Virus record (IMG/VR): IMGVR_UViG_3300032829_000017
Location: 1 to 43,349 of that record
Length of the DNA stretch: 43,349 nt
Strand: one strand, 5' to 3'
From: a virus
The notes below the pieces were generated by a model, which was not told the origin of the DNA, made no database searches, and was given only the letters and a program-made list of their open reading frames with translations. Below, piece after piece: positions 1,852 through 29,311 of this stretch. The translations under genes were made by a program, and so were the position numbers. Numbering within the stretch: position 1 is the first letter of the stretch; every line of letters begins with the position of its first letter.

Positions 1852-2205
1852 TCAAAACTCCATCGGGGCGAAGAAGCAGTATATCCGCGATTTCGTCTCG
1901 TCGGAATAGAACGCCCAAAAATCACCGTCTTGTGACGGAAGGGCGTCGCTATCCGGAATTAAGTGAGGAAGTCCATCAATGCGCCAGCAGCCTTGCGTCG
2001 CTCCTTTCCAGCATTCCTCGGCCGAGAGATGATGGACCCGATTGCCCTCAGGACCGAGGTTGTGGGCATCAGCCTTGCCGCAGCATTGCGCCTTGACCCA
2101 CGATGGGACCGGATCGCCGTTCTTCCATCGATCATGAGCATGAGCGCCCGTGGAAAGAATCAGACTAATGATCCAAGGAAAAAACCATCCCCGTCGCATA
2201 GCCAT
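1852..2205 (-). CDS. Exported small Cys-containing protein
   Basis: 117 residues. Arg-Arg-containing N-terminus, hydrophobic core (FFPWIISLILS) and a cleavage-like TGAHA|HD near residue 23 form a Sec signal peptide. The mature part is rich in Cys, Trp and His (CCGKADAH, EECWKG, QGCWRI, IYCFF), five Cys in all, suggesting disulfides or metal binding. A second in-frame ATG at 2199 is possible. It overlaps the end of the ATP-grasp gene by 41 bases. Function unknown; a role in the cell envelope at lysis or in superinfection immunity is conceivable but untested. Confidence 0.65.
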   Translation of the reverse strand: MAMRRGWFFPWIISLILSTGAHAHDRWKNGDPVPSWVKAQCCGKADAHNLGPEGNRVHHLSAEECWKGATQGCWRIDGLPHLIPDSDALPSQDGDFWAFYSDETKSRIYCFFAPMEF

Positions 2206-3487
2206 GACTCTGAAGTTCCGGAAGCTGCTTCGACAGCCGATCCCCTATATCCGTTCTCCACATCGGGGACCCTGGCATCTTGATGCGTCCGAGCCTACGG
2301 TAGGCCGTCTGCTTGGCCGAGTAAACGTCATCTCCGGTCGCGCTCATGACGAGCACGTAGTCGCCGGCCGTGACCGGCATCTTCTCCTTGACGACCTTGC
2401 CGTCCCGCTCGATCGGCGCCTCGCCCATCATGACCTCGCAGAAATGAACGTGGTCTTCCATACGAGGGGTGATTCCGTAGATCGGCGAGCCGACGACTTC
2501 CTTTCGCGTGAGGTGCGAATAGGGAAAGTCGGGGACCGAGACGACGACGCCGATCGCCACCGTGTCCATGATGAAGGGGCGAGAATCCCGCCCCTGGGCG
2601 AGGTCGTAAAGCCACTCGACGGGGTCGTCGTGAAGCTCCTGCTGAATGTTGAATGTCGGCCAGCCCGGACGCATGGTGAACTCTAGAGGCCAGGGAATCC
2701 CTTTATGGTCGATGATGCAGTTGACATCGATGTATCCGCAATAGTCCGTCTTTGCGAGCGCGTCGCCCAGAGGCTCCAACATCTTGCGGGCCAGCTTGGA
2801 GCGGCTGACATACCGAAGGACAGTTCCTTGCTCTCCGGTCGCGACGCCCTTATCCCCATCCATGAGCTTCTTGAACTCGAAATTCTCACAGAAGCCGTCA
2901 TTAAAGCCATGGGGTCCGAACCATCCCCCGACAGCCATCTCGATACCGTCTATGAACTCTTGCAGAAGAAACGGCGCCTTCAGCTTGCCGAGCTTCTTCC
3001 AGCGTTCGAGCATGAAGATCATATCTGGTGGTGAGTGCGAGCAATAGGAGAGCGCCTTGTCGGCGTCCCCGCTCGGCTTGCTGACGTACCGGCCATTCGT
3101 CTTCTTCACGAACGCGATCGCCTTGTCGTAATCGCTAAACTCGTGGCTGACGGGCGTCGCGATGCCGTGCTTGCGCATCACCTCCATGCCGACCTGCCGG
3201 TCCAGCTCCCATTGCGCGGTCTCGCGAGAAACGGAGATCGTCGGAACGCCGAGAGCCGACTTCGCCATCTCGATGTCCTGGACGTATTTCGTGTTATCGG
3301 AATTGAAGACGAGATCAGCCCACCGAAACCAGTCCTTGTAGTCATCGACGAGATCGACCATGCCGCGGCCGATGTGCTCGGTCTTGGGCGTCTGTCGAAT
3401 GAAATGCTTGATCGTATGGCCGTCATTCTTACAGCGCCACGAAAAATCGAGCGCCGCTCCATTCGGGTCGATGACGAGCAGTCTCAC
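2165..3487 (-). CDS. PurD-like ATP-grasp ligase
   Basis: About 440 residues from the GTG at 3487. That start is chosen because it overlaps the upstream TAG (TAGTG) and begins RLLVIDPNG, like the N-domain of glycinamide ribonucleotide synthetase (PurD). Further PurD-like blocks are: the ATP-grasp Lys segment (GRYVSKPSG), LLQEFIDGIEMAVGGWF (the grasp and substrate region), FEFKKLMDGDKGVATGEQG (like the PurD DGD-GPNTGGMG segment), the metal-binding PLEFTMRPGWP near residue 280, and a C-terminal WRTDIGDRL like the PurD end. Known ATP-grasp enzymes join a carboxylate to an amine or thiol via an acyl phosphate. There are no other purine genes, so a different substrate (virion protein, nucleotide or DNA base) is plausible. 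It sits among late virion genes. Confidence 0.75.
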   Translation of the reverse strand: MRLLVIDPNGAALDFSWRCKNDGHTIKHFIRQTPKTEHIGRGMVDLVDDYKDWFRWADLVFNSDNTKYVQDIEMAKSALGVPTISVSRETAQWELDRQVGMEVMRKHGIATPVSHEFSDYDKAIAFVKKTNGRYVSKPSGDADKALSYCSHSPPDMIFMLERWKKLGKLKAPFLLQEFIDGIEMAVGGWFGPHGFNDGFCENFEFKKLMDGDKGVATGEQGTVLRYVSRSKLARKMLEPLGDALAKTDYCGYIDVNCIIDHKGIPWPLEFTMRPGWPTFNIQQELHDDPVEWLYDLAQGRDSRPFIMDTVAIGVVVSVPDFPYSHLTRKEVVGSPIYGITPRMEDHVHFCEVMMGEAPIERDGKVVKEKMPVTAGDYVLVMSATGDDVYSAKQTAYRRLGRIKMPGSPMWRTDIGDRLSKQLPELQSHGYATGMVFSLDH

Positions 3488-4740
3488 TAGGCGCCACGCG
3501 GGTTGAGCATCCACGGGGCTTTTGACGCCAGCGCGTAGAGCTGCGGAAGCGTCAGACCGGGGAACTGGTTCGCCGTCAAGGATGGTTGACCCGGCGCCGG
3601 AGGATTTCCTCCCGGAGCGAGAGCCGTCATTCCCGTCATGCCGTTGGGAACGCCAAATCCAAAAACGGTCCCAAGCCCAATCGGAGAGGCCGTTTGTCCC
3701 GTCTGTCCCGTCTGTCCCGTCTGTCCCACTTGTCCCATGCCGCCTCGCTGAGCTGGCGCCCCCGGAGGAAGACCGGAGGCGATCGCGTTCGACAGTCCGG
3801 CCGGGCTATCCACCGCTTGCCCATAGGCGTTCATGCCCAAGCTGGGATATCCGATGTTGGCAGGCGTTGGTGCGCTAGGCGCGCTCTTCATGAGGTTCTG
3901 TATGGCCGTGATCGTCGTGTTCGCGTTGCTTGGATTGTCCGCCAAGTAGCCGAGGAGCTGGTTGAGCTGAGTCACGATCGCTGGATTCGAGAGCGCATTC
4001 TGCGCTTGGGCCGATTGAGCATTGACCCCGGCGAGCCCGGCGGCCATGCCCGCCTTTTGCGCCATCGCGTTCATGATCGCGTTCTGCTGAGCCTGCTGCT
4101 GATAGGCCAACGGGTTGTTGGCCACGACCGCAAGCGGGCTCAGCATCGTCGGCTGAGAGACCGGCGTCGCGAAGCGGTAGTTCATCATGTTGAAGGACTG
4201 CGGAGCGGTCGATCCCACGCCGCCGCCGGCGACCCCCCCAGCCCCTCCCGGCGAGCCGCCGAAAGCGCCGCCGCCGATTCCAGGCGCTGCTCCGGGCGCC
4301 GCTCCCACGCCTGCCGGCGCTCCGCCACCGAAGGCTCCCACGCCAGATGAGACGCCTCCGTAAGATCCTGTCGGGCTTCCGGGGGCGGCGCCTACAACTC
4401 CTGCTGTGCTGACGCCTGGGGGACCATTTGCGGGACCAAGGGCTCCCGTTACTCCGAAGCCCATGTTTCCAGTTGGGGCGCCGCTCAGGCCGAATCCGAA
4501 GGATGATGGCGTGCCAACCGTGCTTGTCCCCGGAGGAGCGGCGGACGGGTCTCCGACGTTGCCAAAGCCGGGCGCGAAGCCCATGGCTTGCGCGACTGCG
4601 GCGACCGTGCCGGGATCGACGCCGACCGAGCTGGGAGCAGCATCCTGACCCTCAGCCGTGGCCGAACCGATGCCGCTGGTATCGCCGCTGGTATCGCCGC
4701 CGCCATCGCCGCCTGCTCCGCCGCCGCCGCCGCCTGCCAT
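3487..4740 (-). CDS. Gly/Ala/Pro-rich probable virion protein
   Basis: 417 residues. The N-terminus is a Gly run followed by an acidic segment; residues 60-200 are Gly/Ala/Pro/Ser-rich low complexity; a more ordinary helical part with many Asn/Gln (about 200-300) follows; near residue 345 lies a GQT tripeptide repeat. No enzyme motif. Its place between the transglycosylase-bearing internal protein and the ATP-grasp gene, and its resemblance in composition to the two Gln-rich proteins upstream, suggest an internal or ejected virion protein. ATG 4740 lies 4 bases after the upstream stop. Confidence 0.6.
   Translation of the reverse strand: MAGGGGGGAGGDGGGDTSGDTSGIGSATAEGQDAAPSSVGVDPGTVAAVAQAMGFAPGFGNVGDPSAAPPGTSTVGTPSSFGFGLSGAPTGNMGFGVTGALGPANGPPGVSTAGVVGAAPGSPTGSYGGVSSGVGAFGGGAPAGVGAAPGAAPGIGGGAFGGSPGGAGGVAGGGVGSTAPQSFNMMNYRFATPVSQPTMLSPLAVVANNPLAYQQQAQQNAIMNAMAQKAGMAAGLAGVNAQSAQAQNALSNPAIVTQLNQLLGYLADNPSNANTTITAIQNLMKSAPSAPTPANIGYPSLGMNAYGQAVDSPAGLSNAIASGLPPGAPAQRGGMGQVGQTGQTGQTGQTASPIGLGTVFGFGVPNGMTGMTALAPGGNPPAPGQPSLTANQFPGLTLPQLYALASKAPWMLNPRGA
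3699..3734. repeat. 9-bp tandem repeat coding GQT
   Basis: The 9-mer GTCTGTCCC (plus strand) is repeated in tandem with degenerate flanks, encoding Gly-Gln-Thr triplets in the leftward gene. Such repeats change copy number easily by slippage; each change keeps the frame. Confidence 0.7.
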
Positions 4741-4744
4741 GACC

Positions 4745-10714: not shown

Positions 10715-10835
10715 TCTGATACATTTCGCCGATCGGGCGCCGCGACTTGTCCTCGGTCTTCGGCTCTTTGGTCTTCATGCCCTCGAGCGCCTTGCCGTGC
10801 TTCCCGCCGCCATAGCTTTCCTTCATCGTGCTCAT
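10644..10835 (-). CDS. Small charged protein of unknown function
   Basis: 63 residues, Lys/Glu/Pro-rich (MSTMKESYGGGKHGKALEGM...), probably disordered. ATG 10835 is preceded by GAGG inside the stop region of the exported gene at 10843, a good ribosome site. Its 3' half lies in another frame under the GNAT gene start. Unknown role; small proteins of this style are common next to phage connector genes. Confidence 0.55.
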   Translation of the reverse strand: MSTMKESYGGGKHGKALEGMKTKEPKTEDKSRRPIGEMYQNVDTGAVRSEPSKQDPPIGPRAA

Positions 10836-10842
10836 GCGCGCC

Positions 10843-11439
10843 TCACTGATCGTAGGTCATCGTGATCATGTTGGCGGTCATCGTGCCCGACGAGGCCGCG
10901 GTGCCGGTCACGGTCACGGTTACGGCGGCATTGGTCGCGACCGAGCCGCTGGTCGATTGGACGGAGGCGACGCCGGTCGTCGAGGTCGCGCCATGGCATT
11001 CGTCAGTCTCGGCGCCGGAAGATCCCGCGGTCGTCACGAAGACCCGCCACTCGGTCCACCAGTTGTTGCCCGAGCCGGTGACGACGAGCGCGCACGAGAG
11101 AGCGCCAAAATTGAAGGTGACCGTTTTCGCGTTGGAGTCAGCCGAATTGAGGCCAACGGCGACTACATGCAGCGTCTCGCCGGTGTGGAGCGTATTCGCC
11201 GGGATCGTGTAGGTGGCGAGGGTGTAGGCCGAGGTGCCGGATGTCGTCACCGCCGCCGGCAGGGAGAAGAAGAGATCGTATTGATTCGGATTGAGCGAGG
11301 TCCCAATCCAGGAATTGATTGATCCGAGGGGCGAGCTAGGATCCCACGGGCCGGTCACATATGGCGCGGTTCCCGCGATGGCCTGCGATACGAGGAGGGC
11401 TGTGGAGAGGAGACCGGCGAGGAGGCGCTTCATGGACAT
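10843..11439 (-). CDS. Exported beta-rich virion-like protein
   Basis: 198 residues. Signal peptide: MSMKRLL then LLSTALLVSQAIA|GT at about residue 22. The mature part is Thr/Ser/Val-rich with alternating beta strands (TLATYTIPANTLHTGETLHV, TVTFNFGALSC), a pattern seen in phage fibre and decoration beta-sandwich domains. Two Cys remain after cleavage, enough for one disulfide. ATG 11439 has AAAGGACC in front. Lies just after another exported fibre-tip-like gene. Whether it reaches the particle or the envelope cannot be told from sequence. Confidence 0.65.
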   Translation of the reverse strand: MSMKRLLAGLLSTALLVSQAIAGTAPYVTGPWDPSSPLGSINSWIGTSLNPNQYDLFFSLPAAVTTSGTSAYTLATYTIPANTLHTGETLHVVAVGLNSADSNAKTVTFNFGALSCALVVTGSGNNWWTEWRVFVTTAGSSGAETDECHGATSTTGVASVQSTSGSVATNAAVTVTVTGTAASSGTMTANMITMTYDQ

Positions 11440-11483
11440 GGTCCTTTGCGAGTTGACGGTTATACGCTTGAACTTTCAGCTTT

Positions 11484-12089
11484 TCAACGCATCCTGCGAC
11501 AGCCCAAAAAGCCCCCAGCAGATTGAGTAGCATTGGTGCCGCTGGCCATTGCTTCCAGGTAAACCGGCGTCGTGACGGCAAGAGATTCCCGCACCATGCC
11601 GATCGGAGCCCATGCGTCGTTTGCGACAGGAAATGAACTCTGCGGAACAATTGGACCATTCGTTCCATGGTTGTGAACATCCTGTGTCGCCGGAAATGTC
11701 GCGGACGCCGTTGAAATCCATCCCACATAAGAATTGGTGCTGGACGATCTGAAAATCCACAGATTGCCCCAGCATTGCCAATCGCCTGGCGTCAAATTCA
11801 AAGTGACGATATTGTATGCTTGGTTCCCAGTCCCGATATTGCTTTGAGAAATTGTGCTGGTATATACGTATTCGCCGACGTTTCCGGCCGCCGCATTGTC
11901 GTTTGTCACTGTTCCCTGCAATGCAAACGAATCGCTAAAGCAGTTAGATAAACCGGTGAAGTTTGAATTCACCTGATACGATGAGATTGTCGTATTCGGA
12001 ACGAATGTGAACGGGATCGAACAAGTGACCTGCGCAAACGCCGGGCCGCCGAACAACCAAAAGATAAGGAAAGCGGCGATCTTCTTCAT
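11484..12089 (-). CDS. Exported phage fibre-tip-like protein
   Basis: 201 residues from ATG 12089, chosen because it overlaps the upstream stop as ATGA and starts a good signal peptide (MKKIAAFLIFWLFGGPAFA|QV). The mature part begins VTCSIPFTFVPNTTISSYQVN, the style of many alphaproteobacterial phage tail-fibre proteins, and continues GEYVYTSTI, LNLTPGDWQCWGN and a C-terminal FLGCRRMR, a beta-sandwich tip domain found at the ends of fibres. Four Cys in the mature part. A receptor-binding role is likely by resemblance; the signal peptide is odd for a virion protein made in the cytoplasm. Confidence 0.7.
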   Translation of the reverse strand: MKKIAAFLIFWLFGGPAFAQVTCSIPFTFVPNTTISSYQVNSNFTGLSNCFSDSFALQGTVTNDNAAAGNVGEYVYTSTISQSNIGTGNQAYNIVTLNLTPGDWQCWGNLWIFRSSSTNSYVGWISTASATFPATQDVHNHGTNGPIVPQSSFPVANDAWAPIGMVRESLAVTTPVYLEAMASGTNATQSAGGFLGCRRMR

Positions 12090-14014
12090 GCGATTTGCTG
12101 CAAGTAGCCGAGCTGCCGACGCCTCACCATCGTATCCCCTATGGAGAATCCGAAGGCGGATTGTCCCGTATAGCTGATTTGCATGACAGAGTAGATCACG
12201 GGCGCGCTGAAATCGATCCGCCGCGGTCGCAGGAGCTGAACGCCGCCAGACCCGAATGTCGAAACGTCCCATTGAGCTTGGTCCCAAAGTGTCGCCGATA
12301 ACCCTGTGTACGTATACATCGCTTCGCCGATGGGGTTACCCTGCTCGTCGTCGAGTTGGATAGATAGCGTCGGAGTGCCATAAGCCGCCGTCGTCTTGAC
12401 TGTAAATTCGGTCGCCTCAGACTCGGCCATATCGCTCTCATCGCCGACAATCACGCTCTTCATCTTCCACGTAAGCTGCACGCCGTTCTCGACGAATGAG
12501 GAGAATGGAGTCGGATTCACATCATGTTGCCACAAGGTTCCTGGAACCGCCTGAGGGGTAATGATGAACGAGGCGCCGAACGTATCTATGCAGGTAGATG
12601 GAAAAGTATGAGGCCCTGACCACAGGTCCTTAGACATTTCGTACCAATATTCTTCCCACACATTTCCTGCGGTGACGTTCAATGTCGATACTCTAAGAAC
12701 ATCCGCAGAGCACGCAGCGTTTGTGAGTACGCTATAGTCCCCGGACTTTATGAACGGGACCGTGACGCCAGACCCCTCGTCCCCTATGGGGTCGGTGATG
12801 TTGGCGTCGAAATTAACGGCGCGAAAGCCATCCGGCGCCAAGAACATGACCCCGTTCGGGCTCTCGACGATCGATGATGGCGAGAGGGTTCCGGTCGCCG
12901 TGTTTAGGACGTTGGTGGAAAGCGTATTCAAGGCCGCGTCGCCGGTGATCTGGATCACGTTCGACACGTCCTTGAAGACCATCAAAGACGAGATGATGCC
13001 GCCGAGCTGATTGGCGAGGCCGAGAGGCGCCGCCCCGACAAGGGGATTGTTATCGCCGAAGGTCAAAGCCTGGTTGGCGTTCGATACGTCGAGCGACAGC
13101 ACGTCGGTGTAAACAATAGACGGGATCAGATTTATTGTCGAGGACCCTGGATTGAAGCCGATGTAGGCGCGCTGGTAGAACTGACGGACCCATGCTGCCG
13201 GCGCCGAAACGTCCGTGAACTTGATTTGTCCGTTGCCAATCGAAGTGACCTGAATTCCTCCTGCGTTTGCGCCGCCGCCAATTCCGGTCGCCTGTAACGT
13301 ATTTCCGACAGCGTAGCCCGATCCGCTGGTGATGGGCGCGATAGCTGTGATGTTTCCGGAGCCGTTTACGACAACAACCGCGGTAAATCCGGTTCCGCTT
13401 CCTCCGGTAAACGTCACTCCAGTATAAGTTCCTGGCGTCTGCGTTGCCCCCCCATTCACTGTGAAAGTCTTGACGCCTCCGGCCGACATGAAGTTGCCGG
13501 CGCTCCACGTTGGATAGGCGGGAACCGAAAGGTCGAACCAACCGAACCATCCCGTAACGTTGGGGACGAATCCGGGATGCGTGACATAGATTTTGGTTCC
13601 GACCATATCGATCGAGGGGGTTTGAACTCCAGGACCAAGCGGTGTCGTCGCCGGACAATTGCTCGTCTGAATGTTGTAAACCGTCACGAATGTCTTGGTC
13701 GCCATATTGAAGATGAAGGGCGTGTCTCGGCCGGAATATGTTCCTGAGCCGTTGGCGATCATGCCAAAAACGAGGGTTCCAAAGACTTTGAACTTTGAAA
13801 TTATTCCTGGAGTGCCGACTCCTGCCGCTGTGAAATCCGCGACGCTGGCGAGTTCGATCGCCGCGGGCCGGCAAGTCCACAAGTTCTCGGTCGAGGCGTC
13901 GGGGACCAGGTTTTGCAGGACAGAGCACGCGCCGGGAAAGCCATGCTTCTCGTCCTGCGCGTCGGACAGGCCAGCAGGAGAAAATTGCAGGGGCTGGGCG
14001 TTCCGGAGCGACAT
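12086..14014 (-). CDS. Tail hub/nozzle-like protein (P22 gp10 or T7 gp12 type)
   Basis: 642 residues. Starts MSLRNAQPLQFSPAGLSDAQ, and has the repeated beta-rich make-up of podoviral packaged-DNA-stabilisation or tail-nozzle proteins (VMFLAPDGFRAVNFD, LTWKMKSVIVGDE, SVMQISYTGQ). About residues 175-265 form an inserted Gly-rich module (GTYTGVTFTGGSGTGFTAVV, ITSGSGYAVGNTL) of a kind repeated in many phage surface proteins. It follows directly on the adaptor gene, the expected order connector-hub. ATG 14014 abuts the adaptor stop (TGAATG). Function is by order and composition. Confidence 0.7.
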   Translation of the reverse strand: MSLRNAQPLQFSPAGLSDAQDEKHGFPGACSVLQNLVPDASTENLWTCRPAAIELASVADFTAAGVGTPGIISKFKVFGTLVFGMIANGSGTYSGRDTPFIFNMATKTFVTVYNIQTSNCPATTPLGPGVQTPSIDMVGTKIYVTHPGFVPNVTGWFGWFDLSVPAYPTWSAGNFMSAGGVKTFTVNGGATQTPGTYTGVTFTGGSGTGFTAVVVVNGSGNITAIAPITSGSGYAVGNTLQATGIGGGANAGGIQVTSIGNGQIKFTDVSAPAAWVRQFYQRAYIGFNPGSSTINLIPSIVYTDVLSLDVSNANQALTFGDNNPLVGAAPLGLANQLGGIISSLMVFKDVSNVIQITGDAALNTLSTNVLNTATGTLSPSSIVESPNGVMFLAPDGFRAVNFDANITDPIGDEGSGVTVPFIKSGDYSVLTNAACSADVLRVSTLNVTAGNVWEEYWYEMSKDLWSGPHTFPSTCIDTFGASFIITPQAVPGTLWQHDVNPTPFSSFVENGVQLTWKMKSVIVGDESDMAESEATEFTVKTTAAYGTPTLSIQLDDEQGNPIGEAMYTYTGLSATLWDQAQWDVSTFGSGGVQLLRPRRIDFSAPVIYSVMQISYTGQSAFGFSIGDTMVRRRQLGYLQQIA

Positions 14015-14743: not shown

Positions 14744-14746
14744 AGG

Positions 14747-18802: not shown

Positions 18803-18823
18803 CTGACAAATGTGGGGAGTTTT

Positions 18824-20305
18824 TCAAAAGGCGATTTTTGATTCGTTGTAATTTATGTCGCCCAGGCCGCTTGGAGAGTTGTCATGGGCGCGCACAACCA
18901 CGAGGCAGGAGTAGAGGCCAAGCCTGGCGCTCATCGATCTGGAGCTGACGCTTTGTGAGTTGTTTACCGTGTAGGTTCCGGTCCCTCCGGTTCCACCCGT
19001 GTTTGGAATCGTGGCGGATACGAACGTTCCGGCCGAGACGCCACTGGCGAAAAGAGCCGTTCCTACCTGTATCGGCTGAGTGAACGTGCCGGCCGTTATG
19101 TTGACCGTCGTTCCGGAAATTGACGCTGTGATCGCGTCGCTCACCTCGTCGCGGCAGTTTGCGCTCGCTCCAACGGTGATGTTGATCGTGCTGTTGCAGG
19201 TTCTGGACGCCCATGTTCCGGCTGTCGTCGGGTAGGTCTGAACGACGCCGGAAGCGCCGAGGCCGTTGACTCCGTTTACCCCGCTGTAGACCTGATAATC
19301 GCACGAGGTGATCGTATAAGGAGAGGTCCAGTTGGCGTATGATCCATCCGCGACGGACAAGCTGAAGGTGGTGAAATACGGGTCGTTGGAACCGTTTGTG
19401 ACCGTAGAAAAATTATGGTTACAGGTTGTGGTTTTTGATCCGGTAGACGCCAGGCTTTCCGCGGCCGCAATCTCATTTGGGTCTATACTTGGACCGCTCC
19501 ACTGACCATAATTGTCCACGTTCCAGAATGAGATCATATCTATAGTTCCGCCATATGAAATATAATCAAAGGCGCAGAATGTTCCCAAGCTGTATATCAA
19601 TGAGGAACGAATAACGGTGGGATATGCTGCATGAAATGTCCCCCATGGGTCTGAATAGCCGGCATTGCAACACGTGGTATAATATACCTCGTCTTCCGCC
19701 ATGTCCATCAAATGATATCCATTTGATGATGTCCAATCGAAGAGCTGCTTATATGTTGTGGTTGCGGCGTCTGAATTGGCTAGGGTATAGCCAACCTTCA
19801 TATTATATCCCTTGCTAATAATATAGCTTTTAATAGCATCCATACCAATGGCGTTGTAAGGGATAGAGCAAGGATCGCTGAGTCCAGTCGTATAGTCTCC
19901 ATCTGTTACGCACGGCTCGTTGACAATCAGATATGTTGCGCCTTGAGAGGCCAGTCCGTCGATGACGCCCTCGATGTAGGAGAGGCCGTTAGATATACCG
20001 CCGCAGTTCGGCGTATCGTTCTGAGCGCATCCGGCCGCTTCCGCCGGCAATCCTCCCTCGACGACATATCCCTTCGCCATGATCGCGGCGGAGTCGCCCG
20101 CGTCATTGATGATGTAGATGCCGGTCTGTTTCCCGCTCGCCAAAAAGGTGGAGAGAGTGTTGTTGATCCCTGATCCATAAAACCACAGAACCGGGCTCGG
20201 GAACGAAACCGTTGGATACGAGACCACGCCATGGAATGTCGCATCGCTCTGCGTCACGCAAAGGACGCTGAGCAGCAGAAGGATCAATGCCAGAAGACGA
20301 TTCAT
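18824..20305 (-). CDS. Exported TIM-barrel-like glycosidase candidate
   Basis: 493 residues from ATG 20305, which overlaps the upstream stop as ATGA and begins a signal peptide (MNRLLALILLLLSVLCVTQSDA|TFHG). The mature start ATFHGVVS is shared with the beta-helix protein at 27146. The central part resembles a glycoside-hydrolase barrel: TGIYIINDAGDSA, ATYLIVNEPCV with a candidate catalytic Glu, HLMDMAEDEVYY and ISFWNVDNYGQWSG. A beta-rich C-terminal part (about 330-493) resembles a carbohydrate-binding or fibre domain. Twelve Cys in the mature protein, an even number, suggest disulfides. The DNA at 19500-19900 is clearly richer in A+T than its surroundings, a sign of acquisition. Family and substrate are not identified. 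Confidence 0.6.
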   Translation of the reverse strand: MNRLLALILLLLSVLCVTQSDATFHGVVSYPTVSFPSPVLWFYGSGINNTLSTFLASGKQTGIYIINDAGDSAAIMAKGYVVEGGLPAEAAGCAQNDTPNCGGISNGLSYIEGVIDGLASQGATYLIVNEPCVTDGDYTTGLSDPCSIPYNAIGMDAIKSYIISKGYNMKVGYTLANSDAATTTYKQLFDWTSSNGYHLMDMAEDEVYYTTCCNAGYSDPWGTFHAAYPTVIRSSLIYSLGTFCAFDYISYGGTIDMISFWNVDNYGQWSGPSIDPNEIAAAESLASTGSKTTTCNHNFSTVTNGSNDPYFTTFSLSVADGSYANWTSPYTITSCDYQVYSGVNGVNGLGASGVVQTYPTTAGTWASRTCNSTINITVGASANCRDEVSDAITASISGTTVNITAGTFTQPIQVGTALFASGVSAGTFVSATIPNTGGTGGTGTYTVNNSQSVSSRSMSARLGLYSCLVVVRAHDNSPSGLGDINYNESKIAF

Positions 20306-21036
20306 GATGCTGACTTGATGACCGAACACATCGTTGGAACGACCCCGATCGGGATTCGAGACAGGATGCCTACCGGGACCAAGGATTCGGCCCGGCCGCA
20401 GACGGCCAAGCAATCCGAGCTGCCCACGATTGCCTGCTTGAGCGTATTGATGCGCACGAGCTTGACGTACAGGGTCGCCAACCCATCGCCCTTCGTATCG
20501 GAGGTTTCCTGCAGAGCCATGAGGCCATCGCGGATCAGACCGAAGCAGGCAATCTCGGCCGTCAGCGCCGGGGGCTTGCTGGCGATCCCGATCGCCTTGG
20601 AGAGATCGTCCACGGTGAACTGCGTTATGCCCGAAATGGGATCATTTGCAGGTGGAGACGGAGAGGGCGTCCATCCGCCAAGACATTGCGGATAGGGGAT
20701 ACAGTTCGCTCCCTTTGCCGGAAGCCGTCGGGGACGCTCAGCGGCGCTCGCCGGGCGATCCGAAAAACACAGCGCGGCGATTAGCGCGGCGATTAAAATT
20801 GCAGGAATCAGCGGCTTTGGAATCGCCGCGGCTTGCTGCGCGATCGTCGCGTCCTTGTCCTGCGAGGACTTCGACGATCCGATCCAATAGCCGGCGACCA
20901 GAGTCGTAAGCGTCTTCAGGATGTCCGCCAAACCCGCATTCTCTGGCATCTTGAGGAAGACTACGGCGGCCTCATAAGCACCGAAGAACCCGAGGATGAT
21001 GAGCGAGATGACGAATGCGCCCCAAGCCTTCCACAT
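20302..21036 (-). CDS. Holin-like membrane protein with extra C-terminal domain
   Basis: 244 residues. Membrane segment 1 at about 6-28 (WGAFVISLIILGFFGAYEA), a helical stretch with TLTTLVAGYWIGSS at 42-55, then SKSSQDKDATIAQQ as seen in some phage holin-like proteins. A third hydrophobic segment (IPAILIAALIAALCFS) is followed by about 150 residues with five Cys (NCIPYPQCLGG, IACFGL, DCLAVCGR), which is far longer than a holin. It may be a fusion of a holin-like part with an exported domain. Encoded between portal and exported glycosidase genes; ATG 21036 lies downstream of the portal stop. Confidence 0.5.
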   Translation of the reverse strand: MWKAWGAFVISLIILGFFGAYEAAVVFLKMPENAGLADILKTLTTLVAGYWIGSSKSSQDKDATIAQQAAAIPKPLIPAILIAALIAALCFSDRPASAAERPRRLPAKGANCIPYPQCLGGWTPSPSPPANDPISGITQFTVDDLSKAIGIASKPPALTAEIACFGLIRDGLMALQETSDTKGDGLATLYVKLVRINTLKQAIVGSSDCLAVCGRAESLVPVGILSRIPIGVVPTMCSVIKSAS

Positions 21037-21040
21037 TTCA

Positions 21041-23200
21041 TCACATCCTCGGCGCCGAGTTAGGGTCGCGCAACCTGTCCTGATGGATCATCCCCGGAGG
21101 CCCTTGCGAGCGCGGCCCGGACGGCGAGGCGCCGATGCGCGGTTGTCCGCCGCCACGCCCGCCGCCGCCCGGCTGAGGCTGGGGCTGTTGCTGTTGCATC
21201 TGCTGTTGCTGCGCGGCCTGTATGGCTTGAAGATGAGCCATGATGTGAACCTTGAAATAGTTTTTAGGATCGCCGTCCATCTGCGCGGCCTGCATGTGCG
21301 CCTGGATATGCTTTTGATGGTCGTCCATGATATGAACCGGGACGACGAAGCCCTGCGCAAGAAGCTCATTCTCCTGCTCGGGCTCCATCGACAACTCCAT
21401 GCGGGAGTCTCGGAATGTCAATGGCGCTAGACGCGGCCCAAACAGGTTCTCGATCATCTGAGAAAGGACCGGACCAAGATCAATCCTGTATCCTTGATAT
21501 AGTTGTGGCGGTATCCCTCGAAGGACGTTTAATCCCGCAATCTGCTGCTGCATCTGCTGAGCATTTCGATTCGCCTCCACTCCAAACCATCGGAACTGAT
21601 ATAAACGATCCATTCTTACTAAAGGAATTTCGATCATATTTGAACGCATTCCTGTCGGACCGTATTCGCGAACTCGTAAAGACTTGTCGCGAAACTGATG
21701 GTCGAGCTCCAGCATTCTTAGGAGAATGGGAGAAAAGATTTCGTCTTCAAGCACCGTCACCGCGTCGGAGGTCGTGAGGATGTCGATCTGCTGCTCGTTG
21801 GCGATCTCGGCCTGATTTGGCTTTTTGCGCGGCGTATTGGCGATTCCGGTTATCTGCGCCGGGTTGACCGAGAGAGACTGGAAAATCTCGTTCTTGGCGG
21901 TCGCGACGATCTCGAGGCCGTCCTTCCACAAGGGCGGCATTTGCGCGAATTGGGTGGACTGCGGATCGGTTTCCCAGATCGCCGCCAATGACAGGATCAT
22001 CGAGCCGACCTTCGGGTTCTTTTCCGGGTCGGTCATGATGATCGGCATGAGAGCGTAGGCGGCGCTATCCATCGCCTCGTTGCAGGCGTCGTTGGCCTGG
22101 TACTGCAGATCGGCCACGGAATCGACCTTCGGAACGCCCTTGAAGCAGCCATCGATTTGGTCGATCGGCGCGCTGAGAATGTCGATACGATCCGACCAGT
22201 AGGGGTTGCGCTTGGCCGATATGACGCGATTGCGGCCGGCGTAGTAGGCCAGGCATAGCCTTCGCTCGCCCTTGATCGTGAGCTTGATCCAGGTCCGGTA
22301 GACGAGGGCGTATTTGCCGCGTCCATCGCCCTTGATGCCCGCCGCATCGATCATGGGCTTCATCTTGTCGGCGTTCTGCTTGAATTTCTCCTCGTTCTTC
22401 AGCTCCTGCAAAAGCTCCTCGCCGAACTCCTCGTCGATCTCGTCGAGCGCGATCTTTCTCATGATCATCGCCGGCGTCCAGCGGCAGAGCGTCGTCACCG
22501 AGCCGCCTTGCTCGATGGCGTCTTCCAAGCTCGTCGCCGTGACCGGAAGGACGAGCAGATCGCAATCGGCGATCACCCGGACCTCGGGCGCCCCTTGAAC
22601 GAGCTCCTCCTCCTCGATGTCCTCTATTTCCTCCAAGGCCTCCAATGGCGCTCCCTGCTCGTCCTGAGGCCGCACCGAGACCCTTTGCGCGACGTGGCGC
22701 CGCTGCTCCTCCCACGTCACTTGGACGGTGACCTGCCCCTCGATGTCTCCATTCTTGCAAAGCGCCGGCGCAATGCGCGTGCGAAGCTTAGTCTGGCGGA
22801 CGTAATGCTCGAGAAGAGCCATCTCCGTCTGCGGCAGCGTGCCATCCTCGCTCGTAACCTCGACATGCCGGCCCGACATTGGAAAGAGCTGATTGACGAA
22901 TCGCGTCTTGCGCGCCTCGACCGCATTGCGCACGATCGGCACGAAAATCTGTGAGTTCCCGTTGTAGAACTGGCTATTGCCGAGGACGCAATTGTAGATG
23001 TCCCAATTGTCCATTGCGTTGTCGGAGCGCTCGGCCTGCTGGTCGAAGCCTTTTTCGATGTCCTTGAACGCTTCGAGGAGCGCGTCGCGGATGTTCTCCT
23101 TGCGGCATAGCTGCTCCGACCGATCCATCCTTTCTTCGGCTTCGGAGACCTCGCGGACTTCTCCCGGATCGTTTCGGACCTTTTTCGCCGCTTTTTTCAC
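21041..23200 (-). CDS. Portal protein
   Basis: 719 residues, the size of podoviral portals. Helical N-terminus, then YNGNSQIFVPIVRNAVEARKTRFVNQLFP, a typical wing entry; a middle with KGVPKVDSVADLQYQANDACNEAMDSA and NPAQITGIANTPRKKPNQAEIANEQQ, the region of the portal stem; and a Gln/Gly-rich C-terminus (residues 640-700) that could form the barrel or a disordered tail. The start is GTG 23200, two bases after the stop of the upstream gene, with GGGGTC in front. Position between tail-repeat protein and lysis-like genes is unusual; portals are usually next to terminase. Confidence 0.8.
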   Translation of the reverse strand: MKKAAKKVRNDPGEVREVSEAEERMDRSEQLCRKENIRDALLEAFKDIEKGFDQQAERSDNAMDNWDIYNCVLGNSQFYNGNSQIFVPIVRNAVEARKTRFVNQLFPMSGRHVEVTSEDGTLPQTEMALLEHYVRQTKLRTRIAPALCKNGDIEGQVTVQVTWEEQRRHVAQRVSVRPQDEQGAPLEALEEIEDIEEEELVQGAPEVRVIADCDLLVLPVTATSLEDAIEQGGSVTTLCRWTPAMIMRKIALDEIDEEFGEELLQELKNEEKFKQNADKMKPMIDAAGIKGDGRGKYALVYRTWIKLTIKGERRLCLAYYAGRNRVISAKRNPYWSDRIDILSAPIDQIDGCFKGVPKVDSVADLQYQANDACNEAMDSAAYALMPIIMTDPEKNPKVGSMILSLAAIWETDPQSTQFAQMPPLWKDGLEIVATAKNEIFQSLSVNPAQITGIANTPRKKPNQAEIANEQQIDILTTSDAVTVLEDEIFSPILLRMLELDHQFRDKSLRVREYGPTGMRSNMIEIPLVRMDRLYQFRWFGVEANRNAQQMQQQIAGLNVLRGIPPQLYQGYRIDLGPVLSQMIENLFGPRLAPLTFRDSRMELSMEPEQENELLAQGFVVPVHIMDDHQKHIQAHMQAAQMDGDPKNYFKVHIMAHLQAIQAAQQQQMQQQQPQPQPGGGGRGGGQPRIGASPSGPRSQGPPGMIHQDRLRDPNSAPRM

Positions 23201-23201
23201 T

Positions 23202-26200
23202 TCAAGACCCCATCAAGCGGCCCATGTTATAGTGGAACGGCCTGTCATGTGCATAGGTGTCTGGCGGCGGCGGCGGAGGCGGAGTTGTTCCAAAGGCGAT
23301 GGAAGAAGTGTTGCTGACCCGCACGACTGGCTGGTCGAAGGGGACCTGCCACGCCATGCCCGAGATCGGCGTCGGATGGATTGTGACCGGCAACAGGATC
23401 TCGGTCTGCGACGAGACGCGGTTCAGGAGATTGCCGAAGGCCGCCCACCAGGCCATGCCGGCGATCGGGGTGGGCTTGAAACCAAACGGATAGGCCAGCA
23501 AATCCGCGGGGTTGATCCGAACCTTTGGCTGCTCGAAAGCCACATGCCACGCCATCCCCGAGATGGGCGTAGGCGTGAAGCCGAGCGGAATTGCCGTCGG
23601 TGCGGCCTGAATGAGGACCGGCGCGGACACTCCGAAGGGGACCTGCCAAGCCATGCCAGAGATGGGAGTTGGCAAGAAGCCGAAAGGGAAGGCGATTGGA
23701 TCGGCCGCCTGTAACCTGACCTTGGGCTGCTCGAACGAATAGAACCAACCAAAGGGCGGCGGCGGAATGGGCGGCACATAAGGCTGATACGGAATTCCCG
23801 CATCGAGACGAATCGTAACCTTCGGCTGATCGAAGGGCGTGAACCACGCCATTCCGGAAATCGGAGTCGGCGCAGAAGGAACGGGCAACGATCGCGCGCT
23901 ATCCCCGAAATCGACGCGGACCTTGAGCAAGCTCTGATCGAAGGGCGTCCACCAAGCCATTCCCGAGATCGGGGTTGGCTTGAAGCCGAACGGATATGGG
24001 AGCGGGTCGGCCGAATTGATCTTGATCGTCGGTTGATCGAACGCTCTCCACCACGCCATGCCGGAAATGGGCGTCGGCGTGAACCCTAACGGGTTGGCGA
24101 CAGGAGACGCCTGATTGACCGTCACTATCTTCTGATCGAATGGAACCTGCCATGCGATCCCGGAAATCGGCGTCGGCTTGAATCCAAAGGCATAGGAAAT
24201 CGCGTCGGCCGGATTGATATTGATCTTCGCCGGCTTCTCGAACTGGACCTGCCAAGCCATCCCGGAGATGGGAGTTCCGCTCGTCACGATCGGATGAAGC
24301 GGCGCCGCAATCCCCTCAAGGGACCGATAGGTGATCGGCCTCCAAGGGTCCGGATCGCTCGAGGACGCCATCACCCAGCCCTCGAGCTGAGCGAGGGGGG
24401 TGGCCGGCTGGTCGATCACACCGCCGATCTTGACCTTCGGCTGATCGAAGCTGGCGAACCACGCCATGCCCGAGATCGGGGTCGGCGCGCTCGGCAGATA
24501 GGACGACTGTAGCTTCTCTCCGAAATCGACACGGATTTTCACCGATCGCTGGTCGAAGGGGACTTGCCATGCGATGCCGGAGATCGGCGTTGGCTTGAAT
24601 CCAATTGGCTGCGCTATCGGATTGGCCTGATTTATTTTTACCGTCGGCTGTCCGAATGGAATCCACCAGGCCATCCCTGATATCGGAGTGGGCGTGAAAC
24701 CGAGCGGGTTCGCGATCGGCGACGCCTGATTGACCGTCACCTTGGGCTGGTCGAAGGCGAGGAACCAGGCCATGCCCGAGATGGGCGTCGCCTTGAATCC
24801 AAATGGATATGGGATTGCGTCTGCGGGATTGACCTTGATCTTCGGCTGGTCGAAAGCGGTCCACCAGGCCATGCCGGAGATCGGAGTTCCAGTCGCCACA
24901 ATAGGATGCAGCGGCGGCGCGATCCCTTCCGGGGTGCGAGCGGTTATCGGCCTCCATGGCTCGAGATCGCTCGACGAGGCCATGACCCAATTTTCGAGCT
25001 GGGCCGAGGGAACGACCGGCTGATCCAAATGACCGCCGAGCTTCACCTTGGGCTGGTCGAAGGGGACCTGCCACGCCATGCCCGAGATCGGCGTCGTCGC
25101 CGCCGCCACGTATCGGAAAAATCCCTTCTCGATATGTTGTGTAAACGGCCGTGGCTTCGGCTGATCGTCCCACGCCATGGGAAGCCAGGTGAAGGAAGCC
25201 GCTGGCGCCCACTTGAACGACGCGATGCCGCCGCTCGTGGAGTTAGAGCCGACGCTGGTTATGGACCAGGTCCACGTCTGCGCGCCGCTCGATGTGTAAT
25301 AATAATGGCCAGCAAGATCGGCGTCCTCGATATAGTCGAAGTCCGTCTCGCCGGTGTAGGTGCAGAGGTCGAAGATCGCGCCCGATGGGGCGGTCACGCC
25401 GAGGCCCGGCCCTTGTCCAAGGCCGATGGCCGCGATCGTTATGCCGCTCGTGCTCGTCGGCGACGGGGACGGCGACGAGGTGAAGGTCGAGAGGCCGTTG
25501 ACGTTCTGCAAGCTCGCGACGCTGCCGCCACTATCGAAAGGATTCGAATCAGCGCCGATAACGTCAAAGAACCTCCATGATAGACGTACGTCTGCGCCGC
25601 CTCCCACACAAAGGACAGATAGGTTGGAATTGGATGTCGTGTTCGCGCGGTACCAAATACCGAATCCCGATCCGGCCGAGGTCCATGTTCCTCCCTCGCT
25701 GTCAGTGATCGTCTGGGCGTTGAGAGCCGGATCATCGCAGGTGATGACGCGAAGATTGCCGTAGCACGGGCTTTGCAGAAGGTAGCCGCCGCTTGCCGGA
25801 AAATGATCGGTCGTATGGTGCATGACCCGGACGAGCCGCCGAGGTCCGCCGGCGACGCCTTGCGAGCTATTCAGCTTCAGAGCGACGGCGATCGTGTTGA
25901 AATGATCGGTGTCGCCGATCATTGTCACGGTTGGATTGATCGCCGCGCTCGTCGTTTGCACATAGGCTTGGCAACCGTGGTAAACGCCATCGGCGTTTAT
26001 CCATCCGATGTCGGCGTTGAGCAGGGTGAAGTTGTTTCCCGCTCTGATGTTGATTGTCGTATGCGCCGGACTCGCATCCGCGACGACGAAATAGTTCCAG
26101 ATCAGATTGCCACCGGTCGCATCGTTGTTTGTCGGCGTGAAGGAGCCAGCGGTCAGGGTTGGGCCGACTTGGTGTGCGGCATTGGTGGACCCCGCGCTCG

Positions 26201-27149
26201 GACTCGTATCGATCCCGGTCAACTCAGAAACCGTATACTGAAATCCATTAACCGACGCGCCGAAGGTGATGGTGATCCGCGTCACCCCGGCGGCGGCGTT
26301 CGGAAACACATAGACCGACGCATCGAGGTTGCCGCTGCCAGCATTGGCATGGCTGACCGCAGCGCCCCATGTTCCGTTGATGTTGTCAGCGACCGACGTG
26401 ATCGATGTGCCATTCGGATACATGAAGCCGAGGACAAGGCAGTTCCCGGCTCCGACCGCATTGGGAAGCGGGCAGACAAAGGCGTTGCCGGACTGAGGAC
26501 TTCCGATCGATGGACCGTAGCTGCCGCCGCCGATGTGCTGAACGACCTGACTCGGCTGTGGCGCGTACGGCAGAGCCATGAGTTCGAGCGTCGCCGAGAC
26601 CGAGTTTCCAGTCGTTCCGACGTTGACGTTGGTGGACGACCATGTCGTCACCCCGCCCTCGGTGTCATGTCCAGCTATAGATGCCGCTCCAGATACGAGT
26701 GAGCTTTCGTTCGTCATCCCGGATGGCGCGGTGCTGATCGTCTGAGCGTTATTGGTGCAAAATGCGAACCCTAAGACCCACGAATTGCTGCTGAAATTGT
26801 CGGCCAGCGTCAGAGCCGGATAATTGACGGTGCCGGTCGTGGACGAAGATGAGGCGCTCGGGCCGATGCCGAGTGTGTAGTTGGTGTCCGGCCTATAGAC
26901 ATGACAGGTGAGCAGAGCGGCGTTCGTCCATGTTCCCGAGGCGTCGCTCGTTCCGGTGGCCCATTTGTAGCCGATCCTGATGCTCGAGGTCGTGCCGGAC
27001 TTGGTGAGGATCGATATCCATCCGGAGGGAAGGCTCGGCGCTGTCGTCGAGGCGCGGCCCGCACAAATGATGATGAGGTCGCCGGCCTGATGCGTCGGCG
27101 GAGTGACCGTCGTCGTGTTGGATGTGGACGTGCCGACGAGGATGGTCAT
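23202..27149 (-). CDS. Giant surface protein with TPISGMAW tandem repeats
   Basis: 1,315 residues. Residues 1-430 contain beta-rich domains with a repeated pattern (HQAGDLIIICAGRAS..., GNCLVLGFMYPNGTSI), like modules of phage tail and bacterial surface proteins. Residues of about 685-1275 comprise 15 copies of TPI[SA]G[MI]AW plus one degenerate copy, each followed by x2-PFDQPxVKI and a variable 10-15-residue linker, such as NPADAIPYPFGFK or NQASPIANPLGF. Five-copy blocks are themselves duplicated. A poly-Pro stretch precedes the C-terminus. ATG 27149 overlaps the upstream stop as ATGA; no signal peptide. Probably a fibre, spike or adhesin. The repeat family is not recognised. Confidence 0.65.
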   Translation of the reverse strand: MTILVGTSTSNTTTVTPPTHQAGDLIIICAGRASTTAPSLPSGWISILTKSGTTSSIRIGYKWATGTSDASGTWTNAALLTCHVYRPDTNYTLGIGPSASSSSTTGTVNYPALTLADNFSSNSWVLGFAFCTNNAQTISTAPSGMTNESSLVSGAASIAGHDTEGGVTTWSSTNVNVGTTGNSVSATLELMALPYAPQPSQVVQHIGGGSYGPSIGSPQSGNAFVCPLPNAVGAGNCLVLGFMYPNGTSITSVADNINGTWGAAVSHANAGSGNLDASVYVFPNAAAGVTRITITFGASVNGFQYTVSELTGIDTSPSAGSTNAAHQVGPTLTAGSFTPTNNDATGGNLIWNYFVVADASPAHTTINIRAGNNFTLLNADIGWINADGVYHGCQAYVQTTSAAINPTVTMIGDTDHFNTIAVALKLNSSQGVAGGPRRLVRVMHHTTDHFPASGGYLLQSPCYGNLRVITCDDPALNAQTITDSEGGTWTSAGSGFGIWYRANTTSNSNLSVLCVGGGADVRLSWRFFDVIGADSNPFDSGGSVASLQNVNGLSTFTSSPSPSPTSTSGITIAAIGLGQGPGLGVTAPSGAIFDLCTYTGETDFDYIEDADLAGHYYYTSSGAQTWTWSITSVGSNSTSGGIASFKWAPAASFTWLPMAWDDQPKPRPFTQHIEKGFFRYVAAATTPISGMAWQVPFDQPKVKLGGHLDQPVVPSAQLENWVMASSSDLEPWRPITARTPEGIAPPLHPIVATGTPISGMAWWTAFDQPKIKVNPADAIPYPFGFKATPISGMAWFLAFDQPKVTVNQASPIANPLGFTPTPISGMAWWIPFGQPTVKINQANPIAQPIGFKPTPISGIAWQVPFDQRSVKIRVDFGEKLQSSYLPSAPTPISGMAWFASFDQPKVKIGGVIDQPATPLAQLEGWVMASSSDPDPWRPITYRSLEGIAAPLHPIVTSGTPISGMAWQVQFEKPAKININPADAISYAFGFKPTPISGIAWQVPFDQKIVTVNQASPVANPLGFTPTPISGMAWWRAFDQPTIKINSADPLPYPFGFKPTPISGMAWWTPFDQSLLKVRVDFGDSARSLPVPSAPTPISGMAWFTPFDQPKVTIRLDAGIPYQPYVPPIPPPPFGWFYSFEQPKVRLQAADPIAFPFGFLPTPISGMAWQVPFGVSAPVLIQAAPTAIPLGFTPTPISGMAWHVAFEQPKVRINPADLLAYPFGFKPTPIAGMAWWAAFGNLLNRVSSQTEILLPVTIHPTPISGMAWQVPFDQPVVRVSNTSSIAFGTTPPPPPPPDTYAHDRPFHYNMGRLMGS
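23310..25100 (-). repeat. DNA of the TPISGMAW repeat array with two ~0.61-kb super-repeats
   Basis: Equivalent points of the array lie near 25100, 24488 and 23872, about 612-616 bp apart. Each super-repeat encodes five motif copies in the same order, with linker types DQP-AQLE-ASSSD, NPADAI, NQASP, NQAN/NSAD and VDFG. The remaining part, 23872-23310, is less regular. This is a two-level tandem duplication, consistent with past recombination between motif copies. Confidence 0.75.
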
Positions 27150-29311
27150 GGCTGCACAAAGGGCGTGCCAGCGTCAAAGCGCGCCTTGGCGGGAAGACCG
27201 GAATAGCTTGTGCAACCAGTCCCGCTCGCCGAAGGGATGCGCGTCGCGTCGCTCGATCCCTGCGAGTTGAAGGGAGGCCAGGTGTACGAGCATGAGGACC
27301 CCGCCGTAAAGAACGACGGCTCAGAGGTCAGATAGAACGAGTTCGGCAATGTGTGCGAATACCCATTCGCCCAATCGGCTATTCCCGGCGTCACATAGTC
27401 GTAGTTTCCGTGCTGGAAGATATAGCCGCCACCGTTGAGGTTCGGATCCTGAACGCTCTGCTCGAAATTGCTCCATCCGAGCATCCATATACAACCTATG
27501 TAGGTGTATAGAGACTCCACATAATTGCAGTTGTAAGCCCAATGGTTGGCCGTGGTGGAGTATCCCGGAAATCCCATGACGTTGCCGACATAGCCATACC
27601 AGTAGCTATAGGCCTGCGGTCCCGTCGCCCTTAGAACCCCGTTCTGACTTCCCACGACCTGATTGGCGAAATCGTTTACCGTCGAGCTCGTCACGGGATC
27701 GACGAAGGCCGTCCGATATCCTCCAGAGAAGTTACGGAAATAGACATGGTAGACGCTGTTCCCATGCGTCATCTCATTGTCCATGTTGGAGGTCCAATTG
27801 CCCTCGAACAGGACGCTATGGGCGCCGGTGAAGTGGCTGGCGTTGAGTCCCGTATCCAGCCAAGTCGGTCCGATGCAGGCCATGTAGGCCTGATCGTCCA
27901 TGTAATTGTACGCGATGACCGAGCCCGCTCCTCCGGCCCGGCCGGTCATTCCCTTGCCGCCAAAGCGGGTGATGCTGTTTACGATGAGGACTTCCGTTGA
28001 TCCATTGTCGATGGTGATCGGGTACTCGTCGCCATTGTTGCAGCTTGAATAGGCATCGGCGATGAAGCTCGTGTCGATCTGAGCGCGCACCGCGCTCGAC
28101 AGGACGACGCCGTCCGCTTCCCAGCCGCGCGCCTCGACGTTCCGCATCCAGCAATAGGCGCAGAACTCGATTGTGACGGCGGCTCCGGCCGGCCGATAGA
28201 TGGAAAGGTTCTCGAGTCCCGCGTATTGGGCGAAGGCGGGCGTCGGGTTGTAGACGAGACCGGCATGTCCGCCGCTCGTTCGCATTGCGATGGTCAGAGG
28301 GTCGTCGAAGGTCAGGGTGCAGTTAGCGCCGGGGCAAGGACCGGCGCCGAGAGACTTTATGACGTGAATTTCCGCGTTGACCCGATCGCAATACCAAGAA
28401 TAGGCGCACCACCACGATCCATTGGTCGCCGGGTCCGTCGTCGGGTCGATATCGGCGTTGCAGCAGGTCGGGTTGAATTTGGAATAGGCGACGCGATTGG
28501 TCGCCGGCGAACCGGACGAGCTGAGAAAGTCGGACGTGGCCCATATCTGGCCCTGCCCCATCGGATCGGTCAGATACTGACCATGCGCCTGCTCATCGAT
28601 CCTGACCCACATCCCGACCGAGAAGGGAGATAAACTGTGGACCTGGACCGTGGTTGCTCCCTGAGCCGCGTCGGCGTCCAAGGCGGTCGCGCAGGACGAC
28701 GAGGCTGTGTTGTCGTAGGTACAGCTTCCCCATTGCCCCGAGGCGCCTAGAAGGAAGGTCGATATGCCGGTGCATCCCGTGTTGGGGGAACCGCAAGTGC
28801 GCCCGCCCTGGAAGAAGATGCCGCCGTTCGGAACAAGGATTTCGGTCGGGCAATAGACATTCGTCTGGCTCGCGGGCGTCGAGGAATTGCTGCATGTCCC
28901 ATTGCCGCGAAGGGTTACGCCCTTGCCGATGGTGATCGGCCCTTCCGACTGATCGATCTTGAAGGTCCCGGCCGCCAATTGAATGATCGTTCCGGCCGGG
29001 CAGTTGGCGATCGCCTGCGTGATCTTCACGTAATCGTCGCCGCTGGCCGGCGGGGTGATCCCGGTCGCCGCGAGCGGCATGGTCTCGCCGGCCTGTCCGG
29101 TCGTGCAATTGGTCCGCGCCGCATCCACCGTGTCTATGGAGCCCTGCGGCGCATTCAGAAGTCCGGCGTTCTTCCAGTTCGCGTACACATCATCGTAAGC
29201 CGGAAGGACGCCGCTGGTCGGATCCCCCGAGCTTACGACGCCATGGAAGGTCGCTATGGCGGGAACGATGAGCGCCAGGATCGCCAGGATCACAAAAATT
29301 GCTCGTCGCAT
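27146..29311 (-). CDS. Exported beta-helix (pectate-lyase-like) protein
   Basis: 721 residues. Signal peptide MRRAIFVILAILALIVPAIA then TFHGVVS. Residues 80-150 have the Pectate_lyase_3-like entry of right-handed beta helices (DDYVKITQAIANCPAGTIIQL, AGTFKI, ITIGKGVTLRGNGT). Later rungs: LENLSIYRP, WMRNVEARGWEADGVVLSS, VLIVNSITRFGG, SVLFEGNWTSN. Such helices form polysaccharide-cleaving tail spikes. Twenty-two Cys, all after the signal peptide, strongly suggest an oxidising compartment. ATG 29311 follows AGGGAGCGCC. A secreted or virion-borne depolymerase is likely, with substrate unknown. Confidence 0.7.
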   Translation of the reverse strand: MRRAIFVILAILALIVPAIATFHGVVSSGDPTSGVLPAYDDVYANWKNAGLLNAPQGSIDTVDAARTNCTTGQAGETMPLAATGITPPASGDDYVKITQAIANCPAGTIIQLAAGTFKIDQSEGPITIGKGVTLRGNGTCSNSSTPASQTNVYCPTEILVPNGGIFFQGGRTCGSPNTGCTGISTFLLGASGQWGSCTYDNTASSSCATALDADAAQGATTVQVHSLSPFSVGMWVRIDEQAHGQYLTDPMGQGQIWATSDFLSSSGSPATNRVAYSKFNPTCCNADIDPTTDPATNGSWWCAYSWYCDRVNAEIHVIKSLGAGPCPGANCTLTFDDPLTIAMRTSGGHAGLVYNPTPAFAQYAGLENLSIYRPAGAAVTIEFCAYCWMRNVEARGWEADGVVLSSAVRAQIDTSFIADAYSSCNNGDEYPITIDNGSTEVLIVNSITRFGGKGMTGRAGGAGSVIAYNYMDDQAYMACIGPTWLDTGLNASHFTGAHSVLFEGNWTSNMDNEMTHGNSVYHVYFRNFSGGYRTAFVDPVTSSTVNDFANQVVGSQNGVLRATGPQAYSYWYGYVGNVMGFPGYSTTANHWAYNCNYVESLYTYIGCIWMLGWSNFEQSVQDPNLNGGGYIFQHGNYDYVTPGIADWANGYSHTLPNSFYLTSEPSFFTAGSSCSYTWPPFNSQGSSDATRIPSASGTGCTSYSGLPAKARFDAGTPFVQP

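Follow-up and report, generated by a model that had tools for sequence, protein, structure and literature searches.

Analysis of the virus record IMGVR_UViG_3300032829_000017 from IMG/VR (43,349 bases, positions 1 to 43,349, hereafter the window), for which no close relative was found in GenBank, revealed five late genes whose predicted products begin with putative signal peptides of the general secretion (Sec) pathway. Two of them, at 11484 and 10843, belong to families that we designate A and B and that appear to be of the tail-fibre type. The fibres of this virus and of its relatives are probably exported through Sec, oxidised in the periplasm and joined to the particles when the cell lyses or later. 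That they are exported and oxidised is very likely, and there is a reasonable case that the exported fibres end up in particles. Four features of the predicted proteins carry this reading: the signal and the cleavage site behind it, cysteine pairing that is under selection in the exported forms only, signal-less homologues that can take the same place in the gene order, and recognised fibre domains in exported members.

Signal-bearing late genes of the window

A home-made score for Sec signals and signal peptidase I sites was run on every late-strand open reading frame (ORF) of the window. Exactly five ORFs scored 4.2 or more (those listed as 1852, 10843, 11484, 18824 and 27146), and these are the same five in which an earlier note on this DNA had seen convincing Sec signals. 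The basic n-region, hydrophobic core and AxA site of such signals were recognised both by this score and by a profile of 56 family A signals described below. The top score in the window is that of gene 27146..29311 (minus strand), coding for a right-handed beta-helix-like protein of 721 amino acids with a predicted signal at 29252-29311 (MRRAIFVILAILALIVPAIA, followed by TFHGVVS). Gene 18824..20305 (minus) encodes a 493-amino acid protein of unknown fold; its true start is at 20305, and its signal at 20240-20305 reads MNRLLALILLLLSVLCVTQSDA before TFHG. The family A gene, 11484..12089 (minus, 201 amino acids), has its true start at 12089 and a signal at 12033-12089 (MKKIAAFLIFWLFGGPAFA, followed by QVTC). 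Both corrected starts overlap the stop codon of the preceding gene as ATGA. For genes 10843 and 1852 the signal reads best from the second methionine (11433 and 2199), so that the family B gene spans 10843..11433 (minus, 196 amino acids, signal at 11374-11433), and 1852..2199 (minus) encodes a secreted protein of 115 amino acids with a signal at 2137-2199 (MRRGWFFPWIISLILSTGAHA, followed by HDRW).

A recount of the mature cysteines of 27146, 18824, 11484, 10843 and 1852 gave 22, 12, 4 (the total for that protein), 2 and 5, in agreement with the even numbers reported earlier for four of them. The sequence ATFHGVVS, said to follow cleavage in both 18824 and 27146, is real in these two proteins and private to the window: ATFHGVV is encoded by 26 viral contigs, in none of which it stands behind a signal peptide, and the idea of a widespread motif was rejected.

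Relatives were obtained by fetching 80 soil-virus loci from IMG/VR with the capsid protein of the window (52-76% identity). At a score of 4.5 or more, the late strands of these loci (about 0.95 Mb) hold 104 ORFs with good signals, versus 12 on the antisense strands. Because the antisense scan of about 0.95 Mb gave only these 12, about 0.5 chance signals are expected per window.

Fibre-type families and the related loci

The start codon of the window's family A gene overlaps the stop codon of the gene directly upstream (12086..14014, minus), which codes for a putative tail hub and sits where distant relatives have their "stabilization protein"; the gene order around this hub is that of the annotated distant relatives. 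After the predicted cleavage, the protein opens with an N-terminal module, VTCSIPFTFVPNTTISSYQVNSNFTGLSNC, which holds a cysteine pair. It matches PHROG 11393 (tail fiber protein, 5.7e-7) and is a divergent member, with at best 36% identity to other modules. Among family A relatives, the first 60 mature residues are common and the C-terminal parts differ. In all 96 viral loci a hub ORF lies upstream of the family A gene, with its stop at most 60 nt from the fibre start in 82 of them. Several matches bear on the identity of these proteins: one exported family A member carries Pfam Phage Tail Collar (PF07484, 2.7e-9, above the curated cut-off), a relative that has no signal hits PHROG 523 (tail collar fiber) at 3e-30, an exported family B member matches PHROG 4492 (tail fiber, 3.6e-28), and locus L006 combines signal, module and a tailspike-type beta-helix in one protein. 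Families A and B each join a recognised fibre domain to a place in the tail module. Modelling of a long exported fibre gave a structure of low confidence, with a predicted local distance difference test score (pLDDT) of 69 and a predicted template modelling score of 0.46, and no usable fold match.

The module was searched in the viral_contigs and genome_contigs collections and each of the 137 genes recovered was classed by its start; ambiguous cysteine-bearing genes were re-read by eye, and the sequence upstream of each gene lacking a signal was inspected in a separate pass. The cysteine pair is present in 105 of the 116 genes with a signal (11 are without it) and in 0 of the 21 without; for viral loci alone the counts are 72/79 and 0/17. 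No start yielding a readable signal was found in the inspected upstream sequences of the 21 signal-less genes. Their initial methionine falls at the cleavage point of the others, as in L066, which begins M-GVTVTLPYNLQNGTLEDATQVMADLNALVAGLGNAA, compared with L081, in which GVPCTLPFNLLNNTIADATQVMANYNALVTCLTNAA follows a predicted cleavage after ASA. When 56 family A signals were aligned at the module, alanine was found at position -1 in 55 and at -3 in 44, the remaining -3 residues being small or aliphatic. Variation is greatest at -2 and runs through the signal as a whole, and the mature start is almost invariant. On sequence grounds, such a profile is the evolution pattern of a cleaved signal.

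The scarcity of cysteines in signal-less proteins extends beyond the module. The signal-less fibre of L152 (520 amino acids) has 0 cysteines and the signal-bearing fibre of L098 (554 amino acids) has 10, the two being aligned end to end at 44% identity; several of the L098 cysteines lie within short loop insertions, among them YPTCASACPP and NCATTGGC. Similarly, L156 (signal-less) and L046 (with signal) are full-length homologues with 3 and 12 cysteines. In an alignment of 12 sequences, four pairs of cysteine columns are each jointly present or jointly absent in 12/12, and neither of the two signal-less members has any of the four. On the capsid tree, used for counting gains because the module tree was poorly resolved, supported branches require that signal status changed at least 4 times.

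In family B, 50 of the 52 members detected are predicted to be exported. The window protein was modelled with AlphaFold2 (20 sequences, mean pLDDT 83.9) as a short helix followed by a jelly-roll that may be of the TNF/C1q type. The best structural match is Pgp3 (Z 9.3 over 111 residues), TNF-like lectins score about 9 and legume lectins nearly the same; among viral models the jelly-roll resembles tailspike domains, including that of the KP34 depolymerase. The window protein has no PHROG match, and its tie to tail fibres is by likeness of fold alone. Both cysteines of the family B pair are present in 17 of the 20 sequences and neither in 3; the window and L011 proteins share a cysteine at a different column.

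A similar regularity was observed among signal proteins at large. After removal of near-copies, the mature parts of 94 signal proteins (those of the window included), which come from several unrelated families, have an even number of cysteines in 82 cases, an odd number in 4 and none in 8, while among 829 ORFs without a signal in these loci the number is even in 259 and odd in 321. The binomial probability of 6e-20 overstates the case because homologues were counted. Two of the four odd exceptions look like proteins outside the signal peptidase I class, one with a Tat-like twin-arginine signal (the late-strand protein at L042:2237-3730) and one with a lipobox-like signal. Disulfide bonding is indicated by parity, by the jointly inherited pairs and by the contrast with signal-less homologues; with its 5 cysteines, the protein of gene 1852 does not fit. 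As far as sequence can tell, signals accompanied by even cysteine numbers are a trait of the lineage that extends beyond the window, and this family-wide evidence lends strong support to the earlier proposal that the proteins are delivered across the inner membrane and then oxidised.

Proposed mechanism and competing explanations

According to the mechanism that we propose, receptor-binding proteins of the tail-fibre or tailspike type would be made as precursors with cleavable Sec signals and would cross Sec unfolded. Signal peptidase I would cut just before the N-terminal, presumed docking, module of the fibre, and the cleaved proteins would then fold and oxidise in the periplasm, while heads and tails would assemble in the cytoplasm as usual. 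Breakage of the envelope at lysis would bring fibres and particles together and allow the module to dock on the tail hub. The actual export, the disulfides, the docking on the hub and its timing are what we infer from the features described above. Greater sturdiness of disulfide-stapled fibres in soil is a likely benefit, and early contact with the assembly line is possibly avoided.

Several points weigh against this scheme. No proteomics was found for a related phage, and docking after lysis is not described for these phages. The loci L145, L152 and L156 keep family A without a signal while their family B is exported, and a fibre can therefore work without being exported. In addition, the cysteine counts contain homologues and are hence not independent, and the module tree, which has too few columns, supports just two independent changes of signal status.

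The principal competing explanation is that the exported and oxidised proteins never join the particle and serve in free form, whether as adhesins, lectins, depolymerases or decoys, to loosen capsule and biofilm or to prevent superinfection by blocking receptors. The nearly constant export of family B, its lectin-like and possibly TNF-type fold, the export of outer-membrane barrels by relatives and the resemblance of 27146 to a carbohydrate-active beta-helix would all suit such proteins. However, family A adjoins the tail hub, its place is taken by signal-less fibres in some relatives, and its module is nearly invariant, as expected of a docking surface; if exported family A proteins stayed outside the particle, the phage would lose a fibre that its close relatives have. 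We consider this explanation unlikely, albeit deserving of serious attention. Among the purposes suggested by the earlier note (loosening of capsule, blocking of reinfection or joining of particles at lysis), the joining of particles is the one favoured, for 11484 and 10843, by the contrast between homologues with and without a signal.

It is very improbable that each signal protein represents unrelated cargo of host origin, with its own signal and no common purpose. Gene 1852 does resemble host secreted proteins, and secreted proteins bearing the family A module are encoded in tandem on rhizobial chromosomes, but families A and B hold their gene position and module in many viruses, and signal and cysteine pairs switch together within the lineage. 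The five genes do not form a single set: 1852 resembles an alphaproteobacterial secreted protein, and 18824 and 27146 are without detectable relatives. Homologous ORFs of 1852 occur in Bradyrhizobium-family genomes; its product looks like a small host-like secreted protein rather than a fibre and is probably cargo, and the family match points to a Bradyrhizobium-family host for the virus. Searches with tblastn and sequence patterns found no relatives of 18824, and none of 27146 in phages or viral_contigs. The Pfam matches of 27146 to beta-helix families are weak (DUF1565, 8e-5; Beta_helix, 8e-4), and the view of 27146 and 18824 as fibres or enzymes is derived from gene position and from this match.

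Uncleaved N-terminal anchors in the manner of signal-anchor-release (SAR) endolysins, which would tether the fibres to the inner membrane up to lysis, are very improbable. Such anchors would agree with the strong hydrophobic cores and with the long or weak c-regions of a few signals, but the alanine at -1 next to a free -2 is the signature of signal peptidase I, homologues lacking a signal start precisely where the others would be cleaved, and the profile of 56 genes contradicts the absence of cleavage. Finally, chance hydrophobic starts or start-codon artefacts, for which the home-made nature of the score could be invoked, are scarcely credible, being contradicted by the contrast between late and antisense strands, the cysteine parity and the cleavage profile.

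Genomic context, known systems and implications

The late genes of the window occupy the minus strand between the terminase (31978-33957), at which they begin, and 1549 and were named by position and similarity: portal (21041-23200), scaffold-like gene (17490), major capsid protein (16092) and adaptor (14015), all on the minus strand. Directly upstream of 18824, gene 20302..21036 (minus) encodes a membrane protein. Of its two hydrophobic segments, the second ends in an AxA-like site and precedes a part with 6 cysteines; with a Sec score of 2.85, it is possibly a further export-linked protein. The 1315-amino acid protein at 23202-27149 has no signal; its N-terminus resembles a minor tail protein and its C-terminal half holds many tandem repeats of TPISGMAWxxxFDQPKV. 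A 449-amino acid protein (2165-3514), ATP-grasp/ligase-like as judged by eye, is kept at the equivalent late position in L169 (15126 on), and an ORF of 133 amino acids at 42902-43303 consists of nearly nothing but APAPAPDTATAMAMAP repeats.

L169, a relative on a contig from a metagenome-assembled genome of Methylococcaceae, has an equal late gene order and a family A fibre without signal, which suggests that the lineage extends to gammaproteobacterial hosts. Secreted proteins of about 330 amino acids with signal, family A module and cysteine pair were also observed in rhizobial and Reyranella genomes (L171:4844-9149, L173, L172:6909-9853 and L166:8000-8773), with up to four such genes in tandem in L171; near these arrays lies a gene for a large secreted protein, possibly RHS/YD-repeat-like. 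In addition, L059:7978-8649, a few kb from the capsid gene, encodes an exported protein resembling an outer-membrane barrel (Pfam OMP_b-brl, 2.4e-15). Similar ORFs are present in L021, L022, L048, L050, L053, L058, L061 and L062, that of L048 having no Pfam match. These barrels possibly serve superinfection exclusion. Lambda Lom is a phage-encoded outer-membrane protein, and proteins of this type are likewise exported products of the late or tail region; they are barrels of the host outer membrane, whereas the present proteins are of the fibre type.

Textbook accounts place the assembly of tailed phages in the cytoplasm and, to our knowledge, the familiar phage tail fibres are made there and bear no signal. 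Fibres matching PF07484 and PHROG 523, 4492 and 11393 are like the present ones in their domains, adjacency to the hub, conserved N-terminal module and variable C-terminus; the present fibres differ in having predicted cleavable Sec signals and paired cysteines. No paper on exported tail fibres of tailed phages was found in a literature that included few subscription journals. Phage spanins and outer-membrane proteins also use Sec. Signal-peptide endolysins and SAR endolysins (PMC8951688, PMC3765740) are phage proteins that use the host Sec as well, but they are lysis enzymes, and SAR signals are uncleaved. The mosaic adhesive trimer (MAT) fibres of Bdellovibrio (PMC10769870) are phage-fibre-like and have a signal peptide, a conserved domain after it, and tips that vary, among them TNF-like ones with disulphides. 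As compared by description, they resemble the present fibres in the order of signal and conserved domain, in the variable tips and possibly in the TNF-like fold; however, they are bacterial surface fibres of a predator and not phage genes, and their conserved domain is beta-rich and spans about 130 amino acids after the signal, whereas the family A module has about 60, with a predicted helix.

Outside the lineage, the gene that follows the hub begins with a signal-like segment in two distant Manatee Spring phages, while the product encoded at this place in Pseudoalteromonas phage vB_Pun_Y3 is module-like and lacks a signal. Virulent Rhizobium phages sharing the family A middle domain have fibres without signal. 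Bradyrhizobium phage ppBdUSDA122-1 (OP596612), a cultured siphophage that the laboratory strain Bradyrhizobium diazoefficiens USDA 122 sheds spontaneously and that has been imaged by electron microscopy, has two adjacent fibre genes. Its annotated tail fiber protein carries a signal and 18 cysteines (PHROG 1858, 2.8e-28), and the neighbouring product has a signal-like N-terminus and 6 cysteines; the signal goes unmentioned in the paper describing the phage. The tail fiber resembles the present fibres in its signal peptide and even cysteine number, although the phage is a siphophage with other head and tail genes.

The fibre-export idea is testable now with this cultured phage. The evidence is evenly poised on a broader proposition, namely that tailed phages of soil proteobacteria assemble in two compartments, heads and tails in the cytoplasm and receptor-binding fibres in the oxidising periplasm, the two being united at lysis, with the signal as an exchangeable front part that comes and goes along with a disulfide set. 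This would be a categorically new assembly route only if particles were shown to contain the exported fibres. The finding also cautions against classing signal-bearing fibre or depolymerase genes of soil viruses as auxiliary metabolic genes. If the reading is true, the cysteine-rich fibres of soil viromes would be explained, the prediction and expression of receptor-binding proteins would change, with oxidising folding being needed, and how fibres find particles at lysis would become a question.

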